Shown: one piece after another, positions 6,254-14,661 of the stretch
Position numbering within the stretch: the stretch's first letter is position 1
Layout of the letters: every line of letters starts with the position of its first letter
Origin: Saprospiraceae bacterium
GTDB taxonomy: Bacteria; Bacteroidota; Bacteroidia; Chitinophagales; Saprospiraceae
Assembly: GCA_027488935.1 (NCBI GenBank)
Contig: JAIYAP010000035.1
Coordinates: 1-64,000, forward strand
Length of the DNA stretch: 64,000 nt
Reading direction: 5' to 3'
The notes under the pieces: model-generated
Seen by the model: the letters and a program-made list of their open reading frames with translations, nothing else
Database searches by the model: none
What the model was told of the DNA's origin: nothing
Position numbers and translations under genes: made by a program

Positions 6254-7255
6254 ATGAAAAATGTTTTGTCTGGTATCCAGCCTACGGGCGATTTGCACAT
6301 TGGAAACTACTTCGGCGCGGTTCAAAACTGGGTGCGCCTGCAAGAGGAATACAATTGCTTTTTTTGTGTGGTCGATTATCACTCTATGACCATGCCCTAC
6401 AATCCCGAAAAATTGCGGGAAAATACCTGGAACATGGTTTTCTGGCTCACGGCCTGTGGCGTGAAACCCGAATGTTTGTTTGTCCAAAGCCTGGTGCCCG
6501 AACATGCCGAACTCGCATGGGTGCTCAATTGTATGGTGCCCTACGGCGAAGTAACGCGCATGACGCAGTTTAAGGACAAAACAGACCAGTTGCACGAAAA
6601 AGACAAAGACGCTTTTGTAAGCCTGGGGTTGTTTACCTATCCGGTGCTGCAAGCGGCAGATATTCTGATGTACCATGCGCATTACGTACCTGTGGGCAAA
6701 GACCAGGAGCAACACCTCGAATTGTCGCGCAACATTGCACAACGCTTCAACAGCCAATTTGGAAAGGAGTATTTCCAAATTCCGGAACCCTTATTTACCG
6801 ATACCCCCAAAATCCTTTCGCCCGCCGATCCGAATCGGAAAATGAGCAAAAGTTTGGGTGAAAAACACTACATCAACCTGTTTGGCGAAGAAGACCGGGT
6901 GCGCAAACAAATTAAATCGGCCGTAACGGATACCGGTGACACCCCGGCGGGTGAAATGAGCACCGGCGTGGCCAATTTGTTTGAACTCTTGCGCGCCTGC
7001 AACAGCATGGAACTACACGATAGTTTGATGGCCGACTATAAAGCCGGTACCCTCAAATACAGCGCTTTGAAGGAAGCAGTAGCCGATGCATTGGTTGGCT
7101 TGATTAATCCCTTCCGCGAACGCTTGGCCGAATTGAATGCCGACAAACGCAAAGTGAAAGCGCAAATTCAGGAAAGTAGCGCCGAAATTCGCAAAACTGC
7201 GCAGCAAACTTTGCGGGAAGTCCGAGAAATTGCGGGACTTTTGCCTTTAAAGTAA
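6254..7255 (+). CDS. trpS: Tryptophan--tRNA ligase
   Basis: A 333-residue class I aminoacyl-tRNA synthetase that charges tRNA-Trp. The HIGH-like motif is HIGN at residues 15-18 and the KMSKS loop (RKMSKSLG) is near 195-201, both intact. AACGVKPE-type and GEVTRMTQFKDK segments are typical of bacterial TrpRS. Length matches the family. ATG 6254 is preferred over the TTG at 6245 because MKNVLSGIQPTG is the usual start. It lies 25 bp after ridA and is probably co-transcribed. Confidence 0.97.
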   Translation: MKNVLSGIQPTGDLHIGNYFGAVQNWVRLQEEYNCFFCVVDYHSMTMPYNPEKLRENTWNMVFWLTACGVKPECLFVQSLVPEHAELAWVLNCMVPYGEVTRMTQFKDKTDQLHEKDKDAFVSLGLFTYPVLQAADILMYHAHYVPVGKDQEQHLELSRNIAQRFNSQFGKEYFQIPEPLFTDTPKILSPADPNRKMSKSLGEKHYINLFGEEDRVRKQIKSAVTDTGDTPAGEMSTGVANLFELLRACNSMELHDSLMADYKAGTLKYSALKEAVADALVGLINPFRERLAELNADKRKVKAQIQESSAEIRKTAQQTLREVREIAGLLPLK

Positions 7256-7351
7256 AGGTCGTTTTCATATTGTGATTATACAGTTGTACGATTTTTGCAA
7301 AGTTTACGTTTAAAAGCATTCAACTTTTAAATCACTGTTTTTGACCGCCGC

Positions 7352-8518
7352 ATGAATAAATTGCGCTTTGTTGTTTCGCTTCTTTGTTGGGTGCTGATTT
7401 TGTCGCCTGTATTTGCTCAAAAAGAAACCGTTAAGCCCGGAGGGAGCCCAGGACAAGTAAATAAGATAAATCCTGCCGCCAAAACAAAAACACCCGATCA
7501 GCTGACCGAGCGCGAAGCACCAGAAAGCCTTGAAATCGTGGATTTGGATGCCTTTAAGCCCAAAGCGATCGATACCACGGTATCCTTGTCTGTAATTTCT
7601 TTCGGTTCTTGTAATAGATTGGATAAGCCACAAACGATGTGGAATGCCGTTGCCGCCAATAATCCAAACCTGTGGATTTGGCTCGGTGATATTATATATG
7701 CGGATACCTCAAATATGAAGGTGCTGGCGGGCTATTATAAAAAACTGAAAAACGGTCCAGAGTATAAAAACTTGCGCGCCAAGGCCCAAATTGTCGGGGT
7801 GTACGACGACCATGATTATGGGTATAACGATGCTGCGGGTGGCTATCCGTTTAAAAAGGCTTCCAAAAAATGTCTGCTCGATTTTTTAGATGTGCCCGTC
7901 AATCATGTTACGCGGAAACGAGAAGGGGCCTATACTTCCTATACTTTTGGAAAACCCGGGCAAAAAATCAAGGTAATCGTGCTGGATACCCGGTATTTCC
8001 GCGATACCTTATATGCAGATCCTTCCAAACAAAAACGCTATTTGCCCAATATGGAAGGCGATGTTTTGGGCGCTGCCCAATGGAAATGGCTGGAGCAGGA
8101 ATTGCGCAACAGCCAGGCCAACCTGAATATCTTGTGCACCTCAGTACAGGTTATTTCCGACGAACACCCGTATGAAAAATGGGGTAACTTCCCTAATGCC
8201 CGGAAAAGGTTGCTCGGGTTAATATCAACGGTCAAGCCTAAAAACCTGATTATTATTTCAGGAGATCGCCATATGGCCGAAATTTCAAAGATGGATTTGC
8301 AGGGCTTACCGTATCCTTTGTACGATTTTACGTCCAGTGGGATTACGCATATCCGTTCTGGTACCACGGAAGCCAATAAGTTTCGGGTGGGTGACATGAT
8401 TGTCAAACGCAATTTTGGTCTGCTAAAAGTGCAGTGGGAAGGCTCCAAACCGACCGTTACGATGGAAGTGCGGGGTTTGCAGAATGAATTGTTTCAGACG
8501 ATTGTGGTGAAATATTAG
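7352..8518 (+). CDS. Secreted PhoD-like alkaline phosphatase
   Basis: A 388-residue protein with a signal peptide ending near VFAQ (residue 23), then a Lys/Pro-rich linker. It is followed by a PhoD-type metallophosphoesterase domain: SFGSCN, WLGDIIYADT, DDHDYGYND and SGDRHMAE carry the metal ligands. The C-terminus has the conserved FTSSGITH motif. Family members hydrolyse phosphate mono- and diesters at the cell surface. The last ~203 bp (from 8316) are repeated downstream at 9184-9386, so this gene's 3' end has been exchanged or duplicated by the insertion of a toxin-antitoxin cassette. Confidence 0.88.
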   Translation: MNKLRFVVSLLCWVLILSPVFAQKETVKPGGSPGQVNKINPAAKTKTPDQLTEREAPESLEIVDLDAFKPKAIDTTVSLSVISFGSCNRLDKPQTMWNAVAANNPNLWIWLGDIIYADTSNMKVLAGYYKKLKNGPEYKNLRAKAQIVGVYDDHDYGYNDAAGGYPFKKASKKCLLDFLDVPVNHVTRKREGAYTSYTFGKPGQKIKVIVLDTRYFRDTLYADPSKQKRYLPNMEGDVLGAAQWKWLEQELRNSQANLNILCTSVQVISDEHPYEKWGNFPNARKRLLGLISTVKPKNLIIISGDRHMAEISKMDLQGLPYPLYDFTSSGITHIRSGTTEANKFRVGDMIVKRNFGLLKVQWEGSKPTVTMEVRGLQNELFQTIVVKY

Positions 8519-8561: not shown

Positions 8562-8569
8562 TATTTTTG
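8562..8569 (+). promoter_or_regulatory. -7 box of the DUF433/DUF5615 pair
   Basis: TATTTTTG is a perfect TAnnTTTG box 18 bp before the ATG at 8588. No clear -33 element is seen at the right spacing. Its presence argues against the in-frame TTG at 8567 as the start, since that codon lies inside the box. Confidence 0.55.
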
Positions 8570-8587
8570 TCTGTAAAACATAAGTAT

Positions 8588-8830
8588 ATGGCACTTAATT
8601 GGCAAGAACGCATCGTATCCGATCCTAAAATCATGTTCGGAAAACCGGTAATTCGCGGTACACGCATCCCGGTGGAATTGGTCTTGGAAAAGTTAGCCAA
8701 TGGTGAGACCATTGAAGATTTGCTGGTAGCCTATCCTCGGATCACGCGAGAAGATGTTTCTTCCTGCTTGTTTTATGCGCAGCACAGTGTGAAAAATGAT
8801 ATTATCTACACCCCAGAAGTTGCTGCCTAA
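8588..8830 (+). CDS. DUF433 family antitoxin
   Basis: An 80-residue protein of the DUF433 family: GKPVIRGTRIPVE (residues 19-31) followed by LANGETIEDLL and YPRITREDV is the family signature of this winged-helix-like antitoxin. Such proteins pair with DUF5615 PIN-like toxins in type II toxin-antitoxin modules. The stop TAA (8828-8830) overlaps the ATG of the downstream gene by one base (TAATG), indicating translational coupling. The pair lies between direct repeats of the phosphatase 3' end, which suggests recent acquisition. Confidence 0.9.
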   Translation: MALNWQERIVSDPKIMFGKPVIRGTRIPVELVLEKLANGETIEDLLVAYPRITREDVSSCLFYAQHSVKNDIIYTPEVAA

Positions 8831-9177
8831 TGCTGTTGGCCGACGAAAGCGTTGACTTTACAATCGTCGAAAAACTTCGAGCACAAGGAATCGAGGTTTT
8901 TGCGATTGTTGAGCAAGCGCCATCTATTCCAGATGACGAGGTGTTAAGCATTGCTTTTCACTTAAACGCACCCTTAATTACAGAAGATAAAGACTTTGGT
9001 GAACTCGTTTTTCGACTGAAATTACCGCATCGCGGCATTATTTTGCTTCGATTGGGATCAGTTCCAAAAGAAAAAAAAGGTGAAATTGCCGCTAAAATAA
9101 TTTTGGAGCATTTAGATGAATTGTTAGACGCCTTCAGTGTTTTTGATGGAAAAATACTTCGAATCAGGCCTGTTTGA
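8830..9177 (+). CDS. DUF5615 family PIN-like toxin
   Basis: A 115-residue PIN-fold protein. MLLADESV supplies the first acidic residue, SIPDDEVL the second, and LITEDKDFGELV the third, as in DUF5615 toxins. The C-terminus has GIILLRLG and ends in RIRPV. PIN-domain toxins are RNases that cleave RNA when not held by the antitoxin. The three acidic positions are intact, so it is likely active. It is translationally coupled to the DUF433 gene. Confidence 0.88.
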   Translation: MLLADESVDFTIVEKLRAQGIEVFAIVEQAPSIPDDEVLSIAFHLNAPLITEDKDFGELVFRLKLPHRGIILLRLGSVPKEKKGEIAAKIILEHLDELLDAFSVFDGKILRIRPV

Positions 9178-9386: not shown

Positions 9387-9404
9387 GAAGGAAATTCAAA
9401 ATAA

Positions 9405-9443
9405 AAAAGCCGGTCAATCCCATAAAAGGATTAACCGGCTTTT
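9405..9443. terminator. Bidirectional terminator
   Basis: Arms 9405-9420 and 9428-9443 pair over 16 bp with one mismatch, with an A-run on the left and a T-run on the right. It separates the rightward phosphatase fragment from the leftward PLP-enzyme operon. Confidence 0.85.
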
Positions 9444-9471
9444 CTTATGCCTTATGTTTCAAATCTACCTC

Positions 9472-10716
9472 TTACCCAATCGCCTCCGGCACATAATTCT
9501 TGTACTTCCCGGCTTTCAAATTTTCTCCAATGGACGTAAACGCCTCTAAAGTCAGTTGAATATCTTCGTCGGTATGGGCAGCGGTAGGAATCAGGCGAAG
9601 AATGATCATGCCTTTTGGAATGACCGGATACACCACGATGGAGCAGAATACGCTGTAATTTTCGCGCATGTCTTTTACAAGGGCCATGGCTTCTTCCGGT
9701 TCACCTTGCAGATAAACAGGCGTTACGCAGGTATTGGTATCGCCCAGGTCAAATCCGCGGCTACGCAGACCGTCCTGTAGTTTGTGTACATTCGACCACA
9801 GTTTTTCGCGCAGTTCCGGTTTGTTTTTTAGCAATTCAAACCGTTTCAAGCCGCCTTCCACGATGGGCATCGGCAGTGATTTGGCAAAAATCTGGGAGCG
9901 CATGTTATACCGCAGGAAGCGGATGATTTCAGGCTGGCCGGCGATAAAGGCGCCAATGAGGGCCATACTTTTGGCAAACGTGCTGAAATACAGGTCTACA
10001 TCGTCGGTAACGTCTTGTTCTTCGGCAGTTCCGGCGCCGGTTTTACCCAGCATTCCAAAGCCGTGGGCGTCGTCGATGAGCAATCGGAAGCCATACGTTT
10101 CTTTCAGGGCTACGATTTCACGCAATTTGCCCTGATCGCCGCGCATACCAAATACGCCTTCGGTGATCACGAGGATGCCGCCGCCTGTTTCTTCGACGAG
10201 TTTTTTGGCGCGGTCGAGGTTTTTAGCGAGGCTGTTGATGTCGTTGTGGGTAAAGGCAAACCGTTTGCCCAAGTGCATGCGCAAGGCATCTACGATACAG
10301 GCGTGGCTTTCTGCGTCGTACACCACCACATCGTGGCGGGTAAGCAGCGCGTCGATCACCGACATGATGCCCTGGTAGCCGTAATTGAGCAGATAACCGT
10401 CTTCTTTGCCGACAAAATGGGCTAGTTCGGTTTCCAATTTGCGGTGTTGACCAGTTTCGCCCGACATCATGCGCGCGCCCATTGGGTACGCGAGGCCCCA
10501 TTTAGCAGCGCTTTCGGCATCAGCCTGGCGTACTTCGGGGTGGTTGGCGAGGCCTAAGTAGTTGTTGATACTCCAACAAATCACTTCACGGCCTTTAAAA
10601 AGCATGCGGTTGCCCAGCGCTCCTTCAAGGCGTGGGAACATGTAGTAACCTTCGGCTACTTCGGCGTATTTGCCAAGTGGGCCGGATTGTTTCAAAATTC
10701 TATCGAACAAATCCAT
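9472..10716 (-). CDS. Alpha-oxoamine synthase family PLP enzyme (candidate CapB-like acyltransferase)
   Basis: A 414-residue fold-type I PLP enzyme of the alpha-oxoamine synthase family (8-amino-7-oxononanoate synthase, 2-amino-3-ketobutyrate CoA ligase, serine palmitoyltransferase, cysteate C-acyltransferase). The family decarboxylates an amino acid and condenses it with an acyl-CoA/ACP. Visible residues: His138 (AESHACIVDA), Asp216/His218 in DDAHGFG, and the PLP lysine Lys249 in STFAKS. Substrate cannot be read directly. The cystathionine-beta-synthase-like enzyme 63 bp upstream makes cysteate the best guess, which would make this the first committed step of sulfonolipid (capnine) synthesis. 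Serine palmitoyltransferase is the main alternative. Confidence 0.85.
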   Translation of the reverse strand: MDLFDRILKQSGPLGKYAEVAEGYYMFPRLEGALGNRMLFKGREVICWSINNYLGLANHPEVRQADAESAAKWGLAYPMGARMMSGETGQHRKLETELAHFVGKEDGYLLNYGYQGIMSVIDALLTRHDVVVYDAESHACIVDALRMHLGKRFAFTHNDINSLAKNLDRAKKLVEETGGGILVITEGVFGMRGDQGKLREIVALKETYGFRLLIDDAHGFGMLGKTGAGTAEEQDVTDDVDLYFSTFAKSMALIGAFIAGQPEIIRFLRYNMRSQIFAKSLPMPIVEGGLKRFELLKNKPELREKLWSNVHKLQDGLRSRGFDLGDTNTCVTPVYLQGEPEEAMALVKDMRENYSVFCSIVVYPVIPKGMIILRLIPTAAHTDEDIQLTLEAFTSIGENLKAGKYKNYVPEAIG

Positions 10717-10779
10717 CTCGATACAGGAATGATTATTGAAAAATGTGATTGAATTTGGGCTGTTAAGGCGCCTTACGGT

Positions 10780-11781
10780 TTATGCCTCCACCGAAGCCAC
10801 ACTGGGCTCCAGGAACCCTTGCGCTTCCATCCAACTGTCGTTGAATATTTTACTGACATATTTTGAGCCGTGGTCGGCAAAAATGAGTACAACTACATCG
10901 TCGGCAGTCAGTTCACTTTTTATTTGCTCTAAGCACTGAAGTGCGCCGCCGCTGGAATAACCGACCAGCATGCCTTCCTGGCGTGCGATGGCGCGTGCGC
11001 GCAAGGCACTGTCTTTATCGGTTACTTTCACGAAACGATCCACCAAGCCGAAGTCGAGGTTGGCGGGAATGATATTTTTGCCGGTTCCTTCGATGCGGTA
11101 GGAATAGATTTCATTTTCGTCGTAAATGCCCGTTTCATGGTATTTTTTCAAAACAGAGCCAAAGGCATCTACTGCGATGATTTTTAATGCGGGATTTTGT
11201 TCTTTCAGGTATTTGCCCGAACCGCAAAGGGTGCCACCGGTGCTGGTACTGCCAATAAGGTGGGTGATGCGGCCGTGGGTTTGTTCCCAAATTTCGGGGC
11301 CAGTGCTCAGGTAGTGGGCGTCGGCGTTATCGTGGTTGAAATTCTGGTTGACGTAAAAAGCGCCGGGAATATCTTTTGCCAATTGTTCGGCGCGGCGGTA
11401 GTAAGAGTTGGGATCGTTTGGTTTTGCGTCTTGCGGACAAAGAATCACCTCCGCGCCCATGGCCTTTAGGTTGTTCATTTTGTCCTCCGAAATTTTGCTG
11501 GTAACGGTCAGCACGCATTTGTATCCTTTGATGGCGCAAACCATGGCAAGACTAAAGCCGGTATTGCCGCTGGTAGCATCTACGACGGTAGCGCCTGGCT
11601 TCAATTGGCCTAATCGTTCGGCACGTTCGATCATGTGCAGGGCGATCCGGTCTTTTGCGCTCAAGCCTGGATTGAAAGATTCCACTTTAGCGTACACTGT
11701 AGCTGGCATGTGGGCTACTGTTTGGTTTAATCGGATGAGTGGGGTCTTGCCGATTGTTTCAAGGATATTATTGAAAACCAT
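10780..11781 (-). CDS. Cystathionine beta-synthase/cysteine synthase-like PLP enzyme (candidate cysteate synthase)
   Basis: A 333-residue fold-type II PLP enzyme. The PLP lysine is Lys43 in NPGLSAKDRIA; TSGNTG at 70-75 binds substrate; the phosphate loop GSTSTGGT is at 177-184; GYSSGGAL is near 295. There is no CBS regulatory domain. Family members replace a beta-substituent of serine derivatives. In Bacteroidota a CBS-like enzyme (CapA) makes cysteate from O-phosphoserine and sulfite for sulfonolipids, and the adjacent alpha-oxoamine synthase fits that role. Ordinary cysteine synthase is the alternative. ATG 11781 is preferred: the promoter -7 box lies at 11830-11823, so the upstream in-frame start at 11850 would precede the transcript. 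Confidence 0.8.
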   Translation of the reverse strand: MVFNNILETIGKTPLIRLNQTVAHMPATVYAKVESFNPGLSAKDRIALHMIERAERLGQLKPGATVVDATSGNTGFSLAMVCAIKGYKCVLTVTSKISEDKMNNLKAMGAEVILCPQDAKPNDPNSYYRRAEQLAKDIPGAFYVNQNFNHDNADAHYLSTGPEIWEQTHGRITHLIGSTSTGGTLCGSGKYLKEQNPALKIIAVDAFGSVLKKYHETGIYDENEIYSYRIEGTGKNIIPANLDFGLVDRFVKVTDKDSALRARAIARQEGMLVGYSSGGALQCLEQIKSELTADDVVVLIFADHGSKYVSKIFNDSWMEAQGFLEPSVASVEA

Positions 11782-11822: not shown

Positions 11823-11851
11823 CAAAAATAGGTAATTTCTGAATTGACAAA
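11823..11851 (-). promoter_or_regulatory. Promoter of the PLP-enzyme operon
   Basis: On the minus strand: TTTG (11851-11848), 17-bp spacer, TATTTTTG (11830-11823). Predicted start near 11816, about 35 nt before the ATG. Confidence 0.65.
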
Positions 11852-12336: not shown

Positions 12337-13179
12337 TTATAAAAAATTAAGCCGATGCCGCAAGGCTGAACTAAAAAGTAGGTAAATTTTACGTTTGTCC
12401 GACACCCGAAACCGCTTTTCCGCAACGTGTTGTGCACTTGCCCTACTGATTTTGGCAAACAGTTGGGTGTAATATTTATAAGCGAGGTACACGCCAAACC
12501 GGGAACTTTCCGGCAAGCTGCGAATACCTTCCAGGGCTTCATCGAAATCGGATTTGATGTCGCGTTCAATCTGGAGTTTTTGATCATTGGTGAAACTTTG
12601 AAAACTTACGCCCGGGAAATACACCCGACCGCGTTCGTCAAAGTCACTTTTTATATCGCGCAGGAAGTTGATTTTTTGAAAAGCAGCGCCCAGTTTGCGC
12701 GCCGGTTCCTTGAGTTTTTGGTACGCCTCCTCATTGCCTTCTACAAACACCCGCAGGCACATCAAGCCTACTACTTCTGCCGAGCCATAAATGTATTCGT
12801 CATAGCCACTGGGGTCGTACGCATCTTTGTGGAGATCCATTTCCATGCTGCGCAAAAAGGCCTCAATCAGTTCATGCTCAATATTATATTGGTGTACCGT
12901 TTGTTGGAAGGCATGCAATACCGGGTTCAGGCTGATTTTTTCATCAATTGCTTGATAGGTTTCTTTCCGAAAACGCTCAAACAGGCTGGATTTATCGTAT
13001 TCATGGAAGGTATCTACAATTTCATCGGCAAACCGTACGAAACCGTAAATCGCATAGATGGGTGTTCTCAAGCGTTTGTGAAACACCCGAATACCCAATG
13101 AAAACGAAGTAGAATAACGTGTCGTGATCAGTTTGCTGCATTCGGCGCAGGTAGCATGGTATAGCGCAAGATGATCCAT
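12337..13179 (-). CDS. crtB: Phytoene/squalene synthase family protein
   Basis: A 280-residue all-helical prenyl synthase that condenses two geranylgeranyl diphosphates to phytoene. Both Mg2+-binding aspartate motifs are intact: DEIVD at residues 52-56 and DIKSD at 175-179 within QKINFLRDIKSDF. Pairing with crtI 6 bp upstream supports phytoene rather than squalene synthesis. The peptide RDIKSDFDE occurs twice (about 174-182 and again some 25 residues later) with different codons. The second copy sits outside the active-site motif and may be an old duplication or chance. The gene makes carotenoid pigment precursors at the membrane. Confidence 0.92.
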   Translation of the reverse strand: MDHLALYHATCAECSKLITTRYSTSFSLGIRVFHKRLRTPIYAIYGFVRFADEIVDTFHEYDKSSLFERFRKETYQAIDEKISLNPVLHAFQQTVHQYNIEHELIEAFLRSMEMDLHKDAYDPSGYDEYIYGSAEVVGLMCLRVFVEGNEEAYQKLKEPARKLGAAFQKINFLRDIKSDFDERGRVYFPGVSFQSFTNDQKLQIERDIKSDFDEALEGIRSLPESSRFGVYLAYKYYTQLFAKISRASAQHVAEKRFRVSDKRKIYLLFSSALRHRLNFL

Positions 13180-13185
13180 AGTGTT

Positions 13186-14661
13186 TTATTTAAATTTTTG
13201 CTGAATTTCGGATGCAACCACCTGCCCGCTGATCAATGATGGGGGGACGCCCGGGCCAGGCACAGTTAGTTGCCCGGTGTAATACAGGTTATCGAGGTGG
13301 CGGTTTTTGAGGCTGGGTTTTAAGAAGGCGGTTTGGAGCAGTGTATTGGCCAGGCCGTATGCATTTCCTTTAAACGCATGGTAATCCTGCACAAAATCGG
13401 CATGCGCGAACGAACGCTTGTACACGATATGTTCCCGAATGGGTTGTTCGGTAAGGTGTTCGAGGCGTTTAAGGATAACATCAAAGTATTTTTCCCTGAT
13501 TTCGGGCGTATCTTCCAGTCCGGGTGCAACCGGGATCAGGAAAAACAGGTTTTCATACCCTTCTGGCGCCACGTTGGGATCGGTGATGGAAGGAGCGCTC
13601 ACATAAAAGAGCGGCTGTTCGGGCCACTTCGGCGTATCATAAATCTCTTTTGCGTGCAAGCCAAAATCGGTATCAAAAAAGAGGTTGTGGTGCAGGAGGT
13701 TTTTGAGGCGTTTGTTGACACCTACATAATAGAGCAGGCAGGAAGGCGCCATGGTGCGGCTTTCCCAATACCGATCGGAGTAATTGCGCGCTTCCGGGGG
13801 CAATAGTTTGGTTTCAATATGGTGGTAATCGGCAGCGCCCACAATCACGTCTGCCGAGTAGGTATTCCCATCGGTGGTAATTACTTTAGAAACGTGCTTT
13901 TTTTGTACTTCCAGTTGAGACACTTCCTGGTTTAACAAAATTTCTACGCCTAGTTCGGTGGCCAATTCCATCATGCCATCAATAATAAGGTGCATGCCCC
14001 CCATCGGGTACCAGGTACCTAATTGCATATCGGCATAATTCATTAGGCTGTACAATGCAGGCGTGTTTTGCGGGGTAGCACCGAGGAATAATACCGGGAA
14101 TTCGAGCAGTTTGATCAATTTTTCATTTTTGAAAAGTTGCCGCACATGCTTTGACATCGAAGTAAACATTTGGAGGCGAAACATGCTCGAAATGATGCGC
14201 CAATCTGCAAATTCAAGGATGCTCAGGCTGGGTTTTCGCACAAAATCGTTCATGCCCACCTGGTATTTATACCCGGCTTCTTTCAAAAACTTGCGCAATT
14301 GAGGGGTGCTCCCGGGTTCGTAGTGCTCAAACATGGCCTCCAAGGCTTCCATATTGGCAGGCACATCCATCTTATCATGTTCCCCAAACCATACCCGATA
14401 AGATGGGTCCAGGCGGGTTAATTGGTAATAATCGGATACTTTTTTTCCAAAACGGGCAAAAAACTGCTCGAATACATCAGGCATCCAATACCAGGATGGC
14501 CCCATATCAAACATAAAACCATCTTGTGTAAATTTGCGCGCACGTCCACCAGGGACAGCGTTTTTTTCCAAAACAGTAACACTAAAACCATCCGCTGCCA
14601 GGCTGCATGCAGCAGCCAGACCCGCAAAGCCCGAACCAATAACAATAACTTTTTTCGACAT
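13186..14661 (-). CDS. crtI: Phytoene desaturase (CrtI family)
   Basis: A 491-residue flavoprotein. The N-terminal FAD-binding motif is GSGFAGLAAA (residues 8-17), then LEKNAVPGGRARKF and the family DMGPSWYWMPDVF stretch. The C-terminus has the GQLTVPGPGVPPSLISGQ signature of CrtI desaturases. It introduces double bonds into phytoene to give neurosporene or lycopene. Length is normal. It is the first gene of a two-gene operon with crtB. No cyclase or hydroxylase gene is in the window, so the final carotenoid cannot be named. The 264-bp upstream gap to the divergent kinase gene shows no clear promoter. Confidence 0.93.
   Translation of the reverse strand: MSKKVIVIGSGFAGLAAACSLAADGFSVTVLEKNAVPGGRARKFTQDGFMFDMGPSWYWMPDVFEQFFARFGKKVSDYYQLTRLDPSYRVWFGEHDKMDVPANMEALEAMFEHYEPGSTPQLRKFLKEAGYKYQVGMNDFVRKPSLSILEFADWRIISSMFRLQMFTSMSKHVRQLFKNEKLIKLLEFPVLFLGATPQNTPALYSLMNYADMQLGTWYPMGGMHLIIDGMMELATELGVEILLNQEVSQLEVQKKHVSKVITTDGNTYSADVIVGAADYHHIETKLLPPEARNYSDRYWESRTMAPSCLLYYVGVNKRLKNLLHHNLFFDTDFGLHAKEIYDTPKWPEQPLFYVSAPSITDPNVAPEGYENLFFLIPVAPGLEDTPEIREKYFDVILKRLEHLTEQPIREHIVYKRSFAHADFVQDYHAFKGNAYGLANTLLQTAFLKPSLKNRHLDNLYYTGQLTVPGPGVPPSLISGQVVASEIQQKFK

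Follow-up and report, generated by a model that had tools for sequence, protein, structure and literature searches.

A CapA-CapB enzyme pair of Capnocytophaga ochracea was reportedly described by Liu et al. 2022. The two proteins are listed under consecutive accessions, C7M8J5 and C7M8J6 (PMC12927429), and the chemistry reported for the CapA family is the formation of L-cysteate from O-phosphoserine and sulfite (PMC10191378). The resulting sulfonolipids have been tied to gliding, choanoflagellate development and host inflammation (PMC9304779, PMC11211663). We analysed a stretch of 64,000 nucleotides (the window; positions 1 to 64,000 of contig JAIYAP010000035.1, assembly GCA_027488935.1) from a Saprospiraceae bacterium, in which two adjacent minus-strand genes are very likely a sulfonolipid gene pair encoding the head of the capnine pathway, a judgement based on gene order, family and clade membership, and key residues. 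The first, capA (10780..11781; 333 aa, ATG at 11781, stop at 10780), is predicted to encode a cysteate synthase of the pyridoxal phosphate (PLP) beta-family without the regulatory domain of cystathionine beta-synthase (CBS); the second, capB or sulA (9472..10716; 414 aa, ATG at 10716, stop at 9472), a cysteate fatty-acyltransferase with Schiff-base Lys249 and a SulA-type Lys279. A sequence-only reading of the window had given the span 9472-11781, a spacing of 63 bp, a first enzyme lacking a regulatory domain and a second of the alpha-oxoamine synthase type. All of this holds: the gap spans 10717..10779 on the minus strand and has no stable hairpin (-3.6 kcal/mol), the sole Pfam domain of the first protein is PALP, with no CBS domain, and the second matches Aminotran_1_2 and alpha-oxoamine synthase models.

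The arrangement of capA beside capB is itself already known. As in C. ochracea, where adjacency is deduced from the consecutive accessions, the two enzymes lie side by side, with a CapA-family protein that lacks the regulatory domain and a CapB in the cysteate acyltransferase clade; probably unlike that of C. ochracea, the window CapA sits on a separate Saprospiraceae branch under the NCBIfam cut-off, and the window genome additionally has a serine palmitoyltransferase (SPT) cluster. With this pair, the known sulfonolipid genes reach a genome of Saprospiraceae type, whose CapA branch is divergent and lies beyond the curated model. We propose that CapA would make L-cysteate from O-phosphoserine and sulfite, and that CapB would condense cysteate with a fatty acyl thioester, releasing CO2, to give 3-ketocapnine; a ketoreductase and an N-acyltransferase, both presumably encoded elsewhere in the genome, would then finish the sulfonolipid. 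Two more features make this genome of interest: it also has a sphingolipid-type cluster, and it offers a candidate for the N-acyltransferase.

Evidence for CapB comes from solved structures, phylogeny and the active site. Against the PDB, the window CapB scores 609 bits with 28eh (annotated as Cysteate-C-fatty acyltransferase) and 567 bits with 7u7h, the SulA of Alistipes finegoldii, its best PDB match having an E-value of 3.5e-182; the best SPT (3a2b) reaches 223 bits, the best Kbl 209 and the best BioF 149. In a tree of 28 rows with SPT and Kbl, a single clade (support 100/100) holds the capB rows together with both solved cysteate acyltransferases and leaves SPT and Kbl outside; BioF was compared by score. 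The match to SulA (PMC9304779) is full-length, and Asn53, His140, Lys251, Lys281 and Arg376 of SulA are all kept, the catalytic residues of the window protein being Asn51, His138, Lys249 and Arg374. The active sites of SulA and SPT are reported to differ only at Lys281, which is Ala in SPT (PMC9304779). The corresponding residue here is Lys279, and lysine occupies this column in 92 of 92 other capB rows; it is A in 3a2b and in the window genome's own SPT, and N in the two Kbls compared. A difference from SulA is Leu253, which replaces Gly255. That glycine helps to hold Lys281; the column has Leu in three of the 92 other capB rows and S, G or N in 89. Alistipes also differs in the source of its cysteate, reported to be an archaeal-type synthase rather than CapA (PMC10191378).

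For CapA, we built a tree of 51 rows, comprising 24 of the 71 capB-linked rows, 16 of the 27 full-length CBSs, six unlinked short proteins and five PDB chains. A clade of 28 rows (98/99) unites the window CapA with all 23 other linked rows, three of the unlinked short proteins and PDB 9k2p; the genome's own full-length CBS groups with the CBSs. Together, the CapA clade, the scores of CapB with the solved cysteate acyltransferases and Lys279 bear out the CapA-CapB interpretation of the sequence-only reading. Gene order agrees with it in part. A survey of the 80 top-ranking named capB loci, mainly flavobacterial, found a capA match in the same locus in 61. With the window and L133 added, the linked loci number 63, and in all 63 capA and capB share a strand. 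A genome of the same genus (G339; locus L177) has the pair at 77% and 81% identity. Within the family the link is looser. We examined 15 distinct capB loci (the window, L133, L177, seven named Saprospiraceae loci, L176 and L179-L182): capA adjoins capB in five and lies about 2.4 kb away in one (L008). A reservation about the interpretation is that capA was not found beside capB in the other nine, some of these stretches being incomplete.

The window genome (G000; 6.28 Mb, 88 contigs, 99.96% complete) also carries a second set of lipid genes on contig C83. Closely packed and all on one strand, these encode an SPT, then a GNAT protein of 389 aa and an epimerase-type oxidoreductase; a TetR-type gene lies upstream of them. 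By description, they correspond to the components of the reported bacterial ceramide pathway, in which an SPT acts with an N-acyltransferase (CerS/aca) and a dehydrogenase/epimerase (CerR/epi) in Caulobacter and other Rhodobacteria (PMC11324152, PMC9386255) and in Bacteroides (PMC10865984). In Rhodobacteria, an epimerase and an acyl-CoA N-acyltransferase gene are reported beside spt (PMC9386255). The same triad is present in six of eight SPT loci retrieved for a class-wide sample, the window genome's own included (L142 and L143 are the other two). In the same-genus genome, the cluster begins with SPT and GNAT and ends with the epimerase, and between GNAT and epimerase lies a gene whose product has FA_desaturase and Lipid_DES (sphingolipid delta-4-desaturase) domains.

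Why sulfonolipids and sphingolipids seem to exclude one another in Bacteroidota is a question raised in a review (PMC10191378). We counted both condensing enzymes in 80 genomes of the family Saprospiraceae (the family sample) and 148 genomes of the class (the class sample); association p-values in both samples ignore kinship. In the family sample, CapB is found in 50 genomes, an SPT-like gene in 30 and both in 17, such that SPT occurs in 17 of 50 genomes with CapB and 13 of 30 without (p=0.48, no association). Six of the 30 SPT matches are weaker, at 46-50% identity (G307, G309, G333, G336, G366 and G370), and only G366 is among the 17 genomes with both. In the class sample, CapB is found in 130 genomes, SPT in 13 and both in seven, and the association is negative (SPT in 7/130 genomes with CapB and 6/18 without, p=0.0014; 5/128 and 6/18, p=0.0005, without the weaker SPT matches in G194 and G254). 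Strict mutual exclusion of SPT and CapB is contradicted by the 17 family genomes with both genes, which are counter-examples, at the level of predicted genes, to the suggested either-or choice between sphingolipids and sulfonolipids in Bacteroidota.

The open-licence literature examined names CapA, CapB and ketoreductases; in the portions of it that we consulted, no gene is named for the N-acylation of sulfonolipids. The sequence-only reading had noted that no reductase or N-acyltransferase gene is near the pair; as tested, this stands, since neither the GNAT nor the epimerase of the C83 cluster has a match within 6 kb of the window capB. The likeliest N-acyltransferase is, we suggest, the single tandem-GNAT protein on C83, between the SPT and the epimerase-type reductase. 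It is related (24-31% identity, E 1e-18 to 1e-55) to a gene found downstream of capB, and convergent with it, in 43 of the 80 named loci; the intervening gap has a median of 73 bp, is at most 260 bp in 32 of the 43 and ranges from 3 to 4205 bp. The bacteria with these 43 loci are related, and the loci amount to few events. The genes are arranged differently elsewhere. In G288, from another family (L144), genes for a GNAT, a short-chain dehydrogenase/reductase (SDR), capA and capB lie in a row, all on the minus strand, with overlapping GNAT/SDR and SDR/capA frames, and in G321, from the window's family (L176), capB is followed by the GNAT gene on the same strand. SPT and GNAT genes lie within 1.5 kb of each other in 25 of the 30 family genomes with SPT; in two of the five exceptions, G360 and G361, the SPT gene sits within 350 bases of a contig start. 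In a tree of 36 chosen GNAT rows, adjacency to capB requires four changes (four forced by well-supported branches) and adjacency to SPT three (two forced), and the association with the two condensing enzymes was therefore gained or retained in several lineages.

Presence of the GNAT family follows that of the condensing enzymes. In the family sample, 30 of 30 genomes with SPT have a GNAT member, against 21 of the 33 that have CapB without SPT and 2 of the 17 that have neither gene (p=0.0007 between the latter two groups). The class sample, searched at E 1e-20, has 110 positive genomes of 148; leaving out weak partial matches in G214, G262 and G283, these are 13/13 with SPT, 91/123 with CapB alone and 3/12 with neither (p=0.001). 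The repeated genomic association of this GNAT family with CapB and SPT is thus an observation. On this basis we put forward, tentatively and just short of an even call, that the tandem-GNAT family would supply both the sulfonolipid N-acyltransferase and the ceramide-type one of these Bacteroidota, that it exchanged CapB for SPT as partner, or the reverse, on more than one occasion, and that in the window's genus one copy in the SPT cluster would N-acylate both capnine and sphinganine. Because the window genome has a single tandem-GNAT member (E 1e-20), one enzyme may serve both lipids if this proposal is right, and one organism would then make sulfonolipids and sphingolipids through a common last step. 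The comparison yields a candidate, testable by knock-out, for a step that lacks a gene in the consulted portions of that literature.

A substantial, if minority, possibility is that the tandem GNAT beside SPT or capB acetylates something else and that its position is a relic of synteny. Several observations count for this and against a shared N-acyltransferase. The flavobacterial GNAT genes are convergent with capB, so that in the 43 named loci the two are not co-transcribed, and many genomes with CapB and without SPT lack the family (12 of 33 in the family sample and 32 of 123 in the class sample, or 31 counting one weak partial match). Counting the three weak partial matches, the class association of CapB alone (92/123) versus neither (5/12) falls to p=0.037. 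At 20 further GNAT loci, neither capB nor SPT adjoins the gene, and the neighbours are mostly unrelated. The nearest solved folds point the same way: the predicted structure of a capB-adjacent GNAT (pLDDT 88.8) is a tandem GNAT fold, best matched by 2wpw with Foldseek (E 3.9e-14) and by 7q3a with VIA (Z 22.6, root-mean-square deviation 3.5, 305 aligned residues), and the closest PDB folds are tandem GNAT proteins, mostly acetyltransferases, with N-myristoyltransferases at Z of about 14-15, although fold alone shows no function. A sequence search of the PDB with the GNAT gave five matches, each with E above 0.2, and no NCBIfam family matched the window genome's GNAT or the two further GNATs scanned. 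Against a synteny relic stand the capB adjacency in separate lineages of the GNAT tree and the SPT adjacency in two, the G288 cluster, where the GNAT, SDR and capA frames overlap in turn ahead of capB, the order SPT-GNAT-Lipid_DES desaturase-epimerase in the same-genus genome, and the difference between family genomes with SPT and those with neither gene. A role in N-acylation is what we favour; that the GNAT is the universal N-acyltransferase is too strong a claim, and the family cannot be the only solution, because many CapB-positive genomes are without it.

In SPT-positive, CapB-negative genomes of families f61 and f79 (L165, L166, L167, L174 and L175), the GNAT gene adjoins a gyrB/parE-like gene, and a coaD-like gene then follows in four of these five loci, both genes being named by eye. 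The GNAT of these genomes is possibly the Bacteroides-type CerS.

The identity of the first gene is less sharply defined by curated models than by phylogeny. In NCBIfam, the top model of the window CapA is NF053679 (CapA; 486 bits, E 2.9e-146), ahead of CBS (TIGR01137; 378 bits, cut-off 510), a model that spans the regulatory part and whose cut-off is missed also by the genome's own full-length CBS (488 bits). This CBS is a 452-aa protein on contig C62 with the CBS domain PF00571. It was proposed in the sequence-only reading to compare the first enzyme with CysK and CysM; these were compared by score, the cysteine synthase models giving 273 bits (TIGR01139, cut-off 351) and 250 bits (TIGR01138, cut-off 394), neither reaching its cut-off and both well below 486, while the protein itself falls in the CapA clade. 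We nonetheless weighed the alternative that the first gene is a short CBS or a cysteine synthase for cysteine metabolism that lies beside capB by accident. Four results lend it some weight and tell against a cysteate synthase: the protein does not reach the equivalog cut-off of NF053679 (600 bits), it is 57% identical to the genome's own CBS, that CBS scores 460 bits on the CapA model, and, of 17 discriminating sites, only nine in the window CapA are in the CapA state, five being in the CBS state and three having another residue. Each of these sites distinguishes 66 other linked CapAs from 26 full-length CBSs, with fixation of at least 90%. Because the own CBS scores 460 bits, the model separates CapA from CBS weakly, and for this reason, together with the 57% identity, a tree was needed.

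The tree and the remaining evidence make that alternative highly improbable. The first gene groups with the capB-linked CapAs rather than with CBS. Its nine positions in the CapA state are 76, 77, 95, 100, 148, 206, 230, 235 and 236, among them F76-S77, directly after the SGNTG loop, and K235-N236; at each of the nine, as at all 17 sites, the genome's own CBS is in the CBS state. Moreover, capA adjoins capB not only in a third of the family loci but in most flavobacterial ones, and the window genome already has a full-length CBS and a CysM-like gene. Ten further proteins scanned with NF053679 place the low score in context. The cut-off is reached by three Flavobacteriaceae-type proteins (L036, L040 and L127; 651-653 bits) and missed by the Saprospiraceae relatives L004, L005, L133 and L008 (485-511 bits), as well as by linked rows from other families, L132 (545 bits) and L130 (355 bits, a long branch in the tree); L129, a short protein that groups with CBS in the tree, scores 464 bits. 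The first protein of the pair is thus a member of the CapA clade by phylogeny and not a member by curated model, and we apply the label by phylogeny because the cut-off is missed; the link to characterised CapA runs through the NCBIfam model, as PDB 9k2p bears a generic name only. In the class sample, the only strong match of the CapA query in most CapB-positive genomes is a full-length CBS, judged by open-frame length.

That the second gene is instead a serine palmitoyltransferase, a glycine C-acetyltransferase or BioF is scarcely credible: it has the fold of alpha-oxoamine synthases and the catalytic residues that all these enzymes possess, and its nominal NCBIfam matches are Kbl, SPT and BioF, with no CapB model among the matches, but all of these scores are far under their cut-offs (in bits/cut-off, SPT 283/500 and 279/640, Kbl 284/460 and 254/493, BioF 279/426), the cysteate acyltransferases of the PDB score more than 2.5 times as high as any SPT, Lys279 is present, and other genes of the genome encode an SPT (671 bits, cut-off 640) and a Kbl (674 bits, cut-off 493). 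The comparison with BioF and Kbl suggested in the sequence-only reading therefore comes out in favour of CapB, which falls outside Kbl in the tree, matches BioF far less well than the solved cysteate acyltransferases and carries the SulA-specific lysine.

Candidates for the ketoreductase, CapC, are seen at other loci. An SDR gene immediately precedes capB in L008 and in G378 (L180), and in G288 one is placed between the GNAT gene and capA; these SDRs may be CapC in those genomes. A search of the window genome with the SDR of the L008 cluster gave at least 16 matches (E 1e-10), the best 28% identical, and no clear capC ortholog by this search, a point that weighs against the explanation as a whole; CapC was accordingly not assigned by homology, and since SDRs are too numerous the search decides nothing. 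The ketoreductase genes of C. gleum and A. finegoldii are reported not to lie near cfat and cys (PMC11211663), and for this reason the lack of capC and N-acyltransferase genes near the window capAB is uninformative. At L180 in G378, a TauE/SafE sulfite-exporter-type gene and the SDR gene lie directly upstream of capB (6620-8196, minus strand); a TauE/SafE-type gene beside capB is suggestive because CapA uses sulfite.

Within the window, capA and capB are likely transcribed together, as one unit of two genes that covers the head of the sulfonolipid pathway, since a promoter-like pair precedes capA and a hairpin follows capB. The pair, TTTG ... TATTTTTG (11823..11851, minus strand), lies 41 bp 5' of the capA ATG and is a pattern match made without a chance control; we take it to be of the Bacteroidota -33/-7 promoter type. 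The open reading frame tool placed the start of the capA-like frame at an upstream TTG (11850), giving 356 aa. The intrinsic-terminator-like hairpin (9403..9445, minus strand) has 19 pairs and a T tail and begins 26 bp past the capB stop; the folding energy of the 101 bases around it is -34.4 kcal/mol. Terminator-like sites number six in the region against 7.6 expected in shuffles, and the stem after capB is the longest of the six.

A domain search identified the neighbours of capAB. Upstream, on the same strand and 555 bp before capA, are genes for a phytoene synthase and an amine-oxidase-type (CrtI-like) protein (12337-14661, minus strand). Downstream are genes for DUF433 (8567-8830) and DUF5615 (8830-9177), on the plus strand (8567-9177) and with a one-base overlap, a pair that resembles a toxin-antitoxin module. 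The genome is near Saprospiraceae metagenome-assembled genomes (MAGs), which carry two of the three top named capB matches (79 to 82% identity); the third is on a contig bearing the label Thermoanaerobaculia. In four family genomes, a glyoxalase-superfamily gene (about 353 aa) directly follows capB on the same strand (L180 4224-5282; L181 4194-5261; L182 1728-2786; L008 7491-8552, which is L183 2053-3114).

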